A stretch of 64,000 nt of DNA from assembly GCF_016888165.1 (NCBI RefSeq), contig NZ_JACSWC010000158.1:1-64000 (forward strand). The letters run 5' to 3'. This document shows, piece after piece, positions 18,707 through 30,846 of this stretch. Positions within the stretch are counted from its first letter, which is position 1. Each line of letters opens with the position of its first letter. The notes beneath the pieces were generated by a model. It was not told the origin of the DNA. It ran no database searches and was given only the letters and a program-made list of their open reading frames with translations. Both the position numbers and the translations under genes were made by a program. The stretch comes from Halomicronema sp. CCY15110 (GTDB lineage: Bacteria > Cyanobacteriota > Cyanobacteriia > Phormidesmidales > Phormidesmidaceae).

Positions 18707-19078
18707 TGGGGGCGGAGGGACTTGAACCCTCACGACCTTAACGGTCAACGGATTTTCATCCTCCCGCAGCTTTCGCTGCTGCCAAGGGATAAGTGAAACA
18801 CTTTCCTTAGCTTTGAGAATTGGACCCTCCCTTTACCCTCGCCTCGCGCGTTAGGGTAGCTCCCGTCGGGCCTCTGCACCTTCCAACCAAGTCTGTCGAG
18901 CAGATGGCATTTGGTTGGCTTGGCTCAGGATTGCCATGTTCTCAATCACTGCAAGCGATTAAACGCTGACCGAAAGAGAATTTAGGTTTCCCTGAGTTTG
19001 AGAGCTTCCACTCAACAGATTTCTCCGCTGAGGCTCAGTTTTCTAAGTCCGTAGCGTCTACCATTCCGCCACGCCCCC
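18707..19078 (-). tRNA. trnL-UAA: tRNA-Leu(UAA) with group I intron
   Basis: On the minus strand the 5' exon (19078-19045) reads GGGGGCGTGGCGGAATGG... and ends ...CGGACTT. The 3' exon (18756-18707) starts AAAATCCGTTG. The spliced anticodon stem is ACGGA/UCCGU with loop CUUAAAA, so the anticodon is UAA, interrupted after its first base (U34). The acceptor stem GGGGGCG/CGCCCCC is perfect. The 3' exon also contains a long class II variable arm (GACC/GGUC) and a T arm with loop TTCAAGT. The discriminator base is A. CCA is not encoded. The spliced length is 84 nt, as expected for Leu. Confidence 0.95.
18757..19044 (-). ncRNA. Group I intron in tRNA-Leu
   Basis: A 288-nt intron placed between U34 and A35 of the anticodon, the classic cyanobacterial/plastid position. 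The exon before it ends in U and the intron's last base is G (omega G), as group I splicing needs. Conserved core elements can be read on the minus strand: GGCAATCCTGAGCCAA (P3/P4 region) and GGTGCAGAGGCCCGACGGGA, then GCTACCCTAAC (P7/P3 region). It contains no open frame for a homing endonuclease. It should be self-splicing. Confidence 0.93.
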
Positions 19079-26756: not shown

Positions 26757-26841
26757 TCACTGATGAAATGTATGCACCTCGAAGTTGATTAATCGTCTCG
26801 TTTCATCCAGAGTGACGACACTGTGATCAAAAACCGTTATT

Positions 26842-27264
26842 TCAATATCCATCCCGTTGATCACGGTTGAAGTTATGCCGCTCATCCAGTGTGACTTCAT
26901 CGTTGCCATTGGTATCGGTAGCTTCATCCAATGATTGATGCGCCACAGTTGCCGCCGGACCCTTGTGATACCCATCCCGTTGATCACGGTTGAAGTTATG
27001 CCGCTCATGCAATGTGAGTACCTCATTGCCATTGATATCGGTAGCTTCATCCAATGATTGATGCGCCACAGTTGCCGTCGGACCCTTGTGATACCCATCC
27101 CGTTGATCACGGTTGAAGTTATGCAACTCATGCAGTGTGACTTCATCGTTGCCATTGATATCGGCAGCTTCATCTTTCGGGCCAAATTGCTCAGCCTGAG
27201 CAGTCGCTGCTAGCGTGCCTAGCGAAACCAAAATTACTAAGGTGGAAAATAAAAAGCGTTTCAT
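26842..27264 (-). CDS. Secreted EF-hand-like tandem repeat protein
   Basis: A 140-aa exported protein. The signal peptide (residues 1-24, cleavage after TAQA) precedes a mature part of two complete 41-residue repeats and a third cut after 28 residues. Each repeat carries an EF-hand-like loop: DINGNDEVTLHE, DINGNEVLTLHE and DTNGNDEVTLDE. The spacing (D1, N3, N5, T9, E12) fits calcium coordination, and each is followed by HNFNRDQRDGY. The DNA repeats (period 123 bp, 26845-27174) are nearly identical, indicating recent amplification. The third repeat reads TGA where the others continue with CAC, so the protein ends mid-unit. It may bind Ca2+ in the periplasm or outside; no partner is visible. 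Confidence 0.75.
   Translation of the reverse strand: MKRFLFSTLVILVSLGTLAATAQAEQFGPKDEAADINGNDEVTLHELHNFNRDQRDGYHKGPTATVAHQSLDEATDINGNEVLTLHERHNFNRDQRDGYHKGPAATVAHQSLDEATDTNGNDEVTLDERHNFNRDQRDGY
26845..27174 (-). repeat. 123-bp tandem repeats, 2.7 copies
   Basis: Three direct repeats with period 123 bases (27174-27052, 27051-26929, 26928-26845), in frame with the EF-hand-like protein. They differ by only a few substitutions, so unit number could vary between strains. Confidence 0.85.
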
Positions 27265-28059: not shown

Positions 28060-28180
28060 TTTGGTTTTGAAATGTCCCATATGCACATTCGGCTAGTGGC
28101 AGGGCATCGCCCTGTAAGCTTTATCGCCCGACAAGCTTTAGAGAGTATCAACTTTAGATACGGGACATTTCAAAACTAAA
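28060..28180. mobile_element. MITE-like element, ~121 bp
   Basis: Terminal inverted repeats of 23 bases (28060-28082 and 28158-28180) match at 21 positions; the core ttttgaaatgtccc is identical. The interior has no coding capacity and contains small palindromes (agggcatcgccct). A related end sequence occurs at 26461-26484. This is the structure of a miniature inverted-repeat element mobilised by a transposase encoded elsewhere. Confidence 0.65.
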
Positions 28181-28549
28181 GAGGTCAATAATCGCGTAGG
28201 AATGGGCCTTAAGGCGATTGGGAAGTTCTTGCCTTAGGGCGATCGCTAGGGAAGATGCGCAGAAGTACCTCGCGAGCATTTATACCTAATCTATCTGTTT
28301 CCACTAGGTGCGATCAGTCTCGACTGAGTTTTTTGCGAAGACGGCAACAATTGATAGGCTTCTCAACGTTGCTTTTCGTTCTGTTACGGGTTGCTCGCTG
28401 ATGAGCTGAGTAGCTCCAGTTTGCAGCCTCTCTCAGAACCTCCCAGCACGGCTCTTCCCACTGGCTCAATTCCCCCGCGCGGAGATTAAACATCACCCAG
28501 GATGGCCGTGACAAAACTCAATGATCACCTCACTGACAGCGGTGTTATG

Positions 28550-28785
28550 GTGAAAGGCCATCGGTTTTAGCGAGGAGCAGTCGCTAAAGGAAACGGGGAA
28601 AGTGCAGTGCAAATCTGCCGCTGTCCCGCAGCTGTGAGCCAGTTTGGCATGGTGGATTTTAGATTTGGGTTGGTAAAAGCCCAAGCGGAAATTCCAACTC
28701 AGTCATCCCAAACTGCGCAAGTCAGAATGCCCGCCGATGCGAACAACCTGTTGTGTATTCGTCTGCGAGGTACGGATGGATTTAC
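28550..28785 (+). promoter_or_regulatory. Cobalamin (B12) riboswitch
   Basis: The conserved core is readable: GGGGAAAGTGCAGTGCAAAT, then CTGCCGCTGTCCCGCAGCTG and TGAG, matching the B12-box region (GCTG-CCCGCA-CTGT). It closes with AGTCAGAATGCCCGCCG, equivalent to the usual AGCCAGGA-ACCTGCC end. A closing stem catcgg (28559-28564) with ccgatg (28734-28739) frames the aptamer. The stretch ctgcgaggtacgg (28762-28774) is typical of the 3' regulatory part. It lies upstream of DUF1636 and CobW genes on the same strand. It is expected to switch them off when adenosylcobalamin is plentiful. Confidence 0.88.
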
Positions 28786-28834
28786 GTGTTCAGTCCTTGA
28801 GCTTATTCAAGGCCAGTTTTGGCTTAGGGAGCTG

Positions 28835-28919
28835 CTTAAAAATAACGTCCCCGATCGTAGGGGGTAGGCATTGCCTAACCCCGACAGAAAGCGTCGTAAT
28901 GTTGGGGATGTTATTTAAG
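28835..28919. mobile_element. Palindromic MITE-like insertion in riboswitch leader
   Basis: Imperfect terminal inverted repeats (28835-28852 cttaaaaataacgtcccc and 28904-28919 ggggatgttatttaag) enclose a nested palindrome ggggtaggca/ttgcctaacccc (28861-28882). The ~85-bp element has no coding potential. It sits between the cobalamin aptamer and the terminator before DUF1636. Confidence 0.5.
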
Positions 28920-29139
28920 TGCGATGCCCTTACAGCAATTTGGGGCGACCAGGATAGGGAGCGCGATCGCCCCATCCAGCTTTCTCCTCGCGGCAACGCC
29001 TGTCATTCAGCGTTTGCCCCTGTGCTGGTCGACTAGCATCTCAAATCGGCATCCTCTAGCCCCCCTTAACTGAGTTGTGGCTAGGGAGACTAACAGGAAT
29101 GCGAGCGATTAGCGATCGCTGTCTATGAATGCCAACTTA

Positions 29140-29174
29140 GCACCTTGGGATAACTCAGGTGCGGCTGCTTTTTT
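29140..29174 (+). terminator. Terminator in leader before DUF1636
   Basis: Stem gcacct (29140-29145) with aggtgc (29157-29162) over an 11-base loop, followed by ggctgc and a run of six T (29169-29174). It ends 24 bases before the DUF1636 start codon and downstream of the cobalamin aptamer. It is therefore a candidate for the riboswitch-controlled terminator. The stem is short. Confidence 0.5.
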
Positions 29175-29197
29175 GCCCCCTTTTTTGACGGTAAGTC

Positions 29198-29578
29198 ATG
29201 TCTGAAACAACTTTGATGGTGTGCGCATTGTGTCGTTTTTCCGCACAAGAGCGCAGCCGCAATGGCGTGTCCGGTGGTCAGTACCTAATCGACCAACTGC
29301 GTCAAGAACTCGCCTCGCGATCGCTGCAAGATGTGGTCAACCTGCAGCCGCTGCGCTGTATGGCTGGCTGCCACCAACCCTGCAACGTCTCCGTGGCGGC
29401 ACCGGGCAAGCTGACGTTTATTCTCAGCAGTGTGGACCCGGCTACGGCGGCTGCCCAAGTCTCAGACTTTTGTCAGCAATACACCGCTATCCCCGATGGT
29501 CGGGTGCCCTATGGCGATCGCGCCACCGCCATCCGCCGCGCCACCGCCTTTGTCCTGCCGCCACTCCCCACTCCCTAG
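29198..29578 (+). CDS. DUF1636 metal/Fe-S-binding protein
   Basis: A 126-aa small soluble protein of the DUF1636 family, thioredoxin-like ferredoxin fold. Cysteine pattern: CALC (residues 9-12), then RCMAGCHQPC around residue 53, suited to a [2Fe-2S] cluster or metal binding. The family is frequently found next to cobW and cobalamin genes and under B12 riboswitches, as here. This context suggests a role in metal supply or electron transfer to cobalamin synthesis, or in the metal economy when B12 is scarce. It is upstream of cobW, separated by a heptanucleotide repeat array. ATG 29198 lies 24 bases after the leader terminator. Confidence 0.8.
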   Translation: MSETTLMVCALCRFSAQERSRNGVSGGQYLIDQLRQELASRSLQDVVNLQPLRCMAGCHQPCNVSVAAPGKLTFILSSVDPATAAAQVSDFCQQYTAIPDGRVPYGDRATAIRRATAFVLPPLPTP

Positions 29579-29631
29579 CCCCGTTCCTTCGCGCTACTTA
29601 GGGATGCGCGGGCAATTAAAGTACTGACTCC

Positions 29632-29736
29632 AGCCACCCAGCACCCCACCCCCAATACCCAACACCCAGCACCCAATACCCAACACCCAATACCCAGCCA
29701 CCCAACACCCAACACCCAATACCCAATACCCAAACA
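29632..29736. repeat. STRR heptanucleotide tandem array
   Basis: About 15 units of a degenerate 7-base repeat, CCCAACA / CCCAATA / CCCAGCA. This is a short tandemly repeated repetitive (STRR) sequence typical of filamentous cyanobacteria. It lies between the DUF1636 and cobW genes. Copy number is probably strain-variable. Confidence 0.85.
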
Positions 29737-29793: not shown

Positions 29794-30846
29794 ATGCATA
29801 AAATTCCCGTTACCGTCGTCACTGGCTTCCTGGGTTCCGGCAAAACCACGTTGGTGCGCCATCTGCTGCAAAACAATCAGGGCCGTCGCATTGCCGTACT
29901 CGTAAACGAGTTTGGCGAGGTGGGCATTGATGGCGACATTTTGCGATCGTGCCAGGTCTGTGACGACGAAGACACGACAGCGAATGCCGCCAATGCCAAT
30001 ATCTTGGAACTCGCTAATGGCTGTCTCTGCTGCACCGTGCAGGAAGAGTTTTTGCCCACCATGCAGGAATTGTTGAAGCGGCGACAAGAGATTGACGCGA
30101 TCGTCATCGAAACCTCTGGTCTGGCCTTACCCAAGCCGCTGGTGCAGGCTTTTCGCTGGCCGGAAATTCGTACTGGAGCCACCGTCGATGGCGTGGTGAC
30201 TGTGGTGGATGGCGAGGCTCTGGCTAAGGGCCAAATTGTCGGCGATCTGGCAGCGTTGACCGCCCAACGCCAAGCCGATGACAGCCTGGAGCACGAAACC
30301 CCGATTGAAGAACTGTTTGAAGATCAGCTGGCCTGTGCGGATATGGTGCTGCTGACCAAAACGGACTTGATGGGCGAGGCGGAGCGCGATCGCGTCCAAA
30401 CCTGGCTGCAATCCCAAGCGCCGAGCGGCATTAAAGTCGTCCCCTGTCACCAGGGCGAAATTCATCCCGAGGTGCTGCTGGGCTTCAACGCCGCCGTGGA
30501 AGATCACCTCGACCATCGCCCCAGCCACCACGACCACGAGGAGGAACACGACCACGACGATGACATCAACTCCATTTGCGTGGAACTCAACCAAGCGATC
30601 GACCCCAAAACGTTGGTGAAACGCTTGCAAGCCCTCGTCCAGCAACAAGAAATTTACCGCATTAAAGGATTCGTCGCCGTGCCCAACAAAGCGATGCGCC
30701 TGGTACTGCAAGGCGTGGGGCAGCGGTTTGACCATTTTTATGATCGCCCCTGGCAGCCTGCGGAACGCCGCCAAACCCGCCTTGTCTTTATTGGTCAAAA
30801 CTTAGAGAAAGAGCAAATCGTTCAGGCGTTACAGTTCTGTTTGTGA
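29794..30846 (+). CDS. cobW: CobW-family metallochaperone GTPase
   Basis: A 350-aa G3E-family P-loop GTPase. Motifs: Walker A GFLGSGKTT (about 11-19), NEFGEVGIDGD, the metal site GCLCC in LANGCLCCTVQEEF (CXCC), switch/Walker B IETSGLALP, and the guanine-specifying TKTD. A His/Asp-rich segment (HHDHEEEHDHDDD, about residue 248) precedes the C-terminal CobW_C domain. CobW is implicated in delivering Co(II) for aerobic cobalamin synthesis; related members handle Zn or Fe. The upstream cobalamin riboswitch and DUF1636 support the cobalt assignment. About 215 bases, mostly the STRR array, separate it from DUF1636. Confidence 0.92.
   Translation: MHKIPVTVVTGFLGSGKTTLVRHLLQNNQGRRIAVLVNEFGEVGIDGDILRSCQVCDDEDTTANAANANILELANGCLCCTVQEEFLPTMQELLKRRQEIDAIVIETSGLALPKPLVQAFRWPEIRTGATVDGVVTVVDGEALAKGQIVGDLAALTAQRQADDSLEHETPIEELFEDQLACADMVLLTKTDLMGEAERDRVQTWLQSQAPSGIKVVPCHQGEIHPEVLLGFNAAVEDHLDHRPSHHDHEEEHDHDDDINSICVELNQAIDPKTLVKRLQALVQQQEIYRIKGFVAVPNKAMRLVLQGVGQRFDHFYDRPWQPAERRQTRLVFIGQNLEKEQIVQALQFCL

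Follow-up and report, generated by a model that had tools for sequence, protein, structure and literature searches.

Cobalamin riboswitches of the translational type, represented by E. coli btuB and by env8HyCbl, use an L5-L13 kissing loop that stabilises P13 and hides the ribosome-binding site (PMC10653944). A riboswitch-uORF leader has been described for ppe2 of M. tuberculosis. There, a B12 OFF switch controls a short upstream ORF (uORF), the Shine-Dalgarno (SD) sequence lies in the L13-bearing hairpin, and the gene needs translation of the uORF (PMC11260477). In cyanobacteria, B12 control has been shown for the alr4027-btuB2 locus of Anabaena sp. PCC 7120. At this locus a cobalamin riboswitch lies 5' of a gene for a 'putative metal-binding protein', and B12/cobalt control was seen by reporter and RT-PCR (PMC10878165). 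The transcript rose about 100-fold without cobalt and was removed by B12.

We analysed a 64,000-nucleotide stretch of Halomicronema sp. CCY15110 (hereafter the window), in which a B12 aptamer had been read at 28550-28785, ahead of genes for DUF1636 and CobW (Table 1). The aptamer was borne out by the Rfam cobalamin model, with a score well over the gathering score of 31.5 bits (E 9e-12); this model ends at 28752, before P13. The L5 agrees with the UCCCG consensus quoted for this loop (PMC10653944), and the aptamer is 80% identical to that of a sister genome (G001). The identities of the two downstream genes were likewise confirmed by Pfam. CobW carries both the cobW nucleotide-binding and the CobW_C domains, each passing its cut-off, while DUF1636 has been assigned to a thioredoxin-like [2Fe-2S]-type fold family (PMC4520260).

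Table 1. Positions of the features of the riboswitch locus within the window
Feature	Position	Strand	Evidence
Cobalamin riboswitch aptamer (RF00174)	28545..28752	+	Rfam covariance model, 57.9 bits
L5 UCCCG, aptamer half of kissing loop	28624..28628	+	read from sequence
P13 hairpin (expression platform), loop CGAGGUA	28757..28781	+	covariation in 61 loci
Shine-Dalgarno GAGG inside L13	28767..28770	+	5 nt before AUG; kept in 59/61 loci
AUG of short ORF	28776-28778	+	in 3' strand of P13
uORF, 86 codons	28776..29036	+	first 17 codons homologous to hupE start; rest from MITE frameshift
Hairpin CCUUGAG-cuua-UUCAAGG just 3' of AUG	28795..28812	+	comparison
MITE, 103 bp	28827..28929	+	inverted ends, target-site duplication, genomic copies, empty sister site
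Target-site duplication TTA	left 28824..28826, right 28930-28932	+	
Terminator-like hairpin with T6	stem 29140-29162, T-run 29169-29174	+	sequence, sister comparison
DUF1636 protein gene	29198..29578	+	PF07845 2e-30, 106 vs 31.6 bits gathering
CobW/COG0523 GTPase gene	29794..30846	+	PF02492 1.9e-58, PF07683 5.5e-23

When the riboswitches of relatives were aligned (the search set around the window includes Nodosilinea- and Leptolyngbya-like genomes), a hairpin came to light directly 3' of the aptamer; its sequence, CUGCGAGGUAC(A/G)GAUG, is near-invariant. Across 61 loci, 85-100% of the sequences can form each of the six inner stem pairs of this P13 (27-49% in slid controls), and the pairs covary, with changes such as A-U/G-U/G-C. 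The loop CGAGGUA (CGAGGTA in the DNA) was present in 59 of the 61 loci, and an AUG lay within the 3' strand of P13 in 48. L5 UCCCG and L13 CGAGG can pair at four of five positions, with one A.C mismatch; both loops are near-invariant, so that covariation is uninformative for this contact. An SD in L13 and an AUG in P13, both conserved, are the marks of a translational switch. A transcriptional switch would have, beside the aptamer, a terminator that excludes an antiterminator; no terminator adjoins P13, and the terminator-like hairpin is 360 nt away. The platform thus appears to be of the translational OFF type, and its direct target would be the start of the short ORF, not DUF1636. The earlier reading of the sequence had overlooked the uORF as well as P13/L13 and the SD and AUG that it carries.

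The window shares with E. coli btuB and env8HyCbl (PMC10653944) the aptamer family and, putatively, the L5-L13 kissing-loop design, but differs in that the SD is in L13 itself, the AUG is in P13, and the controlled ORF is a short uORF rather than the gene. The nearest precedent is the ppe2 leader, in which, as in the window to judge from its sequence, the start of a uORF is controlled by the L13 hairpin. The ppe2 uORF, however, overlaps its gene (AUGA, termination-reinitiation), whereas in the window 162 nt separate the uORF stop from the DUF1636 start. Simple termination-reinitiation from the uORF to DUF1636 is unlikely because of this distance.

The uORF itself pointed to a lost gene. Its first 48 nt are identical at 34 positions (34/48) to the start of the riboswitch-linked hupE of the sister genome, and when the comparison was limited to the 45 nt that follow the ATG, a match as good was reached by none of 20,000 shuffles. 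Of the two riboswitches of this kind in the sister, one opens an intact hupE (MNLRVLALSFLKA...) and the other a stub (MDLRVQSLREFKASF...) before DUF1636. In a genome of the same genus (G004) the order is riboswitch-hupE-DUF1636, and only a few nt lie between the end of hupE and DUF1636. This intact operon agrees with the window in its aptamer, its P13, the context of the start codon and the DUF1636 and CobW genes that follow; its riboswitch, however, starts a full-length hupE, whereas the window retains only the first hupE codons. Given the order in G004, the paired riboswitches of the sister and the 34/48 match, the leader ORF is most simply read as a hupE stub, what is left of the 5' part of a hupE-like cobalt-transporter gene. 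A tblastn search of the leader beyond the stub gave no convincing HupE relic (best E 0.04). Elsewhere in the Halomicronema genome there are two HupE genes and one CbiM, all without the exact P13 sequence. The only other riboswitch-like site of this genome is below the cut-off and lies 5' of a CbiX-like ORF (CbiX being a reading from sequence alone). The stem of the small hairpin just 3' of the AUG is kept in the window, the sister stub and the hupE paralogues, while its loop varies. Across 93 loci, the region +18..+52 folds slightly better than its shuffles (mean z -0.60, vs about -0.2 nearby).

A palindromic MITE-like insertion had been proposed at 28835-28919. The element is real, but its ends are wider, and the palindrome corresponds to about its central part. 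It is short and non-coding, with terminal inverted repeats and a target duplication. At least six other copies occur in its own genome at 88-95% identity, and related copies in some relatives. The site is empty in the sister genome, with which the joined MITE flanks are collinear. A search by the end sequences for a parent IS with the same ends returned essentially only MITE copies. A second palindromic MITE-like element lies at 28060-28180, just 5' of the riboswitch; it has 23-nt inverted ends (91% complementary) and, at another site of the genome, a single relative that is partial and diverged (71%).

The original prediction held that the insertion may have replaced or altered the expression platform. 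We found that the MITE begins 45 nt 3' of the end of P13, which is intact and conserved, and so it did neither; the MITE-free sister has the same P13 at its empty site, and the MITE as a new platform was rejected. Equilibrium folds of 461-656 nt with and without the element did give a lower P13 probability with the MITE, but folds of this length are unreliable, and P13 would form before the MITE is transcribed.

What the MITE did change was the uORF. The insertion point is inside the uORF, 51 nt 3' of the A of the AUG, and the 106-nt insertion (MITE plus duplication) shifts the frame after codon 17, so that a uORF of 63 codons became one of 86 and its stop moved from about 29073 to 29036. The pre-MITE uORF and the 65-codon uORF of the sister encode similar peptides. 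The frameshift, the displaced stop and the very stable hairpin that the MITE adds could mean that, in this species only, the switch still controls the uORF while DUF1636-cobW has become uncoupled or constitutive, the sister remaining regulated. We consider this unlikely, as the uORF is still open and of similar size, and many leaders tolerate long and variable spacers.

We also evaluated the terminator proposed at 29140-29174. The hairpin and its T6 do exist, and their position is kept in the sister, where all six stem pairs (6/6) are retained, three of them through double changes. However, the site was not called by a consensus terminator scan, the local fold is ordinary (z -1.05), and between stem and T-run there is an unusual gap of 6 nt. 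Terminator-like sites were also not enriched in such uORF leaders (7/42, vs 3.7 expected). The terminator was accordingly rejected as the platform, the conserved hairpin notwithstanding. A transcriptional riboswitch, with this terminator as its platform and the MITE having altered or replaced an ancestral one, could call on the hairpin and its preservation in the sister. It is nevertheless very improbable: the platform conserved in 61 loci is P13, directly after the aptamer, and the sister, free of the MITE, has both the same P13 and the same hairpin near DUF1636. The translational reading leaves room for this hairpin as a candidate attenuator in this lineage.

Comparison with the sister indicated where selection acts. 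The two genomes share 89% identity over the block that starts at the B12 box, includes P13 and ends where the MITE begins, and the uORF shows no difference in its first 26 nt (26/26). The leader 3' of the MITE is only 48% identical (42-43% in three shuffled controls), and the third codon positions of DUF1636 55%. Owing to this contrast, the aptamer, P13, the AUG and the uORF start are taken to be still under selection. These values bear on the possibility that the riboswitch and stub are decaying after the loss of hupE, with DUF1636 expressed from its own promoter. At the window site hupE is indeed only a stub, the part of the leader from the stub to DUF1636 is not conserved, and DUF1636 is without a strong SD. 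Such decay is nonetheless improbable: neutral sites have diverged between the two species far more than the aptamer, P13, the AUG or the first 26 nt of the stub, and DUF1636 is riboswitch-linked in many cyanobacteria. Nor was a sigma-70-like promoter found at 28200-29700.

To see how general this layout is, we scanned GTDB genomes for the exact P13 sequence, requiring the AUG there, and pooled the hits with the loci already collected. This gave at least 109 riboswitch-linked loci with this platform. Among the matches listed, the first ORF was short in 71 of 109; the others were 15 hupE, 3 cbiM and 20 with another long ORF. The 54 distinct short uORFs (>35% different, among the matches listed) were at least 18 codons long in 96% of cases and of 18-55 codons in 94%. 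Lengths of at least 18 codons were reached by 44% of dinucleotide shuffles (maximum 61%) and by 42% of other ATGs in the same leaders, which rules out chance ORFs. Four uORFs from Nostocales share a length of exactly 31 codons, with spacers that vary between 152 and 286 nt. The peptides are weakly constrained (pN/pS 0.5-1.1), so that conserved peptides are unsupported and the frame or stop matters more than the peptide; only translation of the uORF or the position of its stop can then be of importance.

The genes that follow the short uORFs (among the matches listed) were DUF1636, the commonest (14), an unknown protein of 160 aa ('hyp160', 12), MetE (9), CbiM (5), CobW (4), a TonB receptor (4) and others. 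The uORF-gene gaps were mostly 100-500 nt among the matches listed; a ppe2-like overlap or near-touch was seen there only in the dozen hyp160 loci. The same P13 AUG starts DUF1636 directly in 13 loci (G020 and 12 other cyanobacterial loci), and in other loci the gene it opens is hupE, cbiM or that of a TonB receptor. In Nostocales loci the order is riboswitch-uORF-DUF1636-TonB receptor. The gene order of Anabaena alr4027-btuB2 matches this, and for this reason we infer that alr4027 is DUF1636; unlike for the window, the accessible part of its account mentions neither a uORF nor a MITE. Thus, the proposed B12 control of DUF1636-cobW is well supported by comparison, through the riboswitch 5' of DUF1636 in many relatives, the 13 direct fusions and the Anabaena analogue. 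A layout of B12 switch, short leader frame and gene appears, from these loci, to be common in cyanobacteria. Our search of the open literature found no description of uORFs behind cyanobacterial B12 riboswitches.

Together, these comparisons lead us to favour, as the probable reading, a translational OFF cobalamin riboswitch that gates a hupE-remnant uORF and represses DUF1636-cobW indirectly, with a MITE that spares the platform. With B12 bound, L5 would kiss L13, P13 would be locked, and the GAGG and AUG of the uORF would be hidden; when B12 is scarce, the uORF would be translated. DUF1636 and then cobW follow on the same strand, presumably on the same transcript as the riboswitch. An untranslated leader would give less downstream mRNA, either by decay or by attenuation, for which the hairpin 29140-29174 is a possible site. 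Cyanobacteria are without Rho (PMC13289151). What we infer is the response to the ligand in Halomicronema, the shared transcript, and the way in which uORF translation reaches DUF1636.

More tentatively, and with somewhat less than even confidence, we suggest that most cyanobacterial B12 riboswitches with the SD in L13 gate not the gene itself but a translated uORF that is short and often lies 100-500 nt before it, that ribosome traffic on this uORF sets the downstream mRNA level through an attenuation or stability relay, and that the MITE of the window is a natural relay mutant. If this holds across cyanobacteria, current annotation, which assigns the riboswitch to the gene that follows, has the wrong regulated start codon at about two thirds of these loci, and the true point of control would escape reporters in which the riboswitch is joined to the annotated gene. 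The ~100-fold mRNA change that a seemingly purely translational riboswitch gives in Anabaena would also become easier to explain. The gene for DUF1636, an uncharacterised Fe-S-like protein, follows these switches more often than any other, and on this ground it can be argued that DUF1636 takes part in supplying cobalt or B12.

Several further features were observed. The uORFs L043, L051, L055, L085, L234, L252, L264, L265, L206 and L262 share a DNA motif at their ends, roughly R-R-TTG-TAG. They precede different genes (metE, DUF1636, cobW, unknown) and their peptides differ; the motif might represent an RNA element at the place where the uORF stops. Among the matches listed, the second most frequent gene after these uORFs encodes a protein of unknown function of 150-160 aa (minus-strand ORFs, L077 1088-1552 and L085), homologues of which also occur in a metE-desaturase-DUF1636-cobW cluster. 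In L165, L196, L204, L213 and L237, the DUF1636 started directly from P13 has an N-terminal extension of ~14 residues that resembles the uORF starts of related loci, as if the uORF had been fused to the gene.

Elsewhere in the window, a Group I intron match (RF00028, 66.7 bits) lies at 18804-19054 on the minus strand. ARAGORN called no tRNA anywhere in the window, and the intron either interrupts a tRNA invisible to ARAGORN or has a host gene that is not a tRNA. An ORF at 26757-27264 (minus strand) has imperfect internal repeats (DEATDINGNDEVTLHELHNFNRDQRDGYHKGP) and no Pfam match at the threshold used. Between DUF1636 and cobW, at 29635-29735, there are short tandem repeats of CACCCAA(C/T)ACCC.
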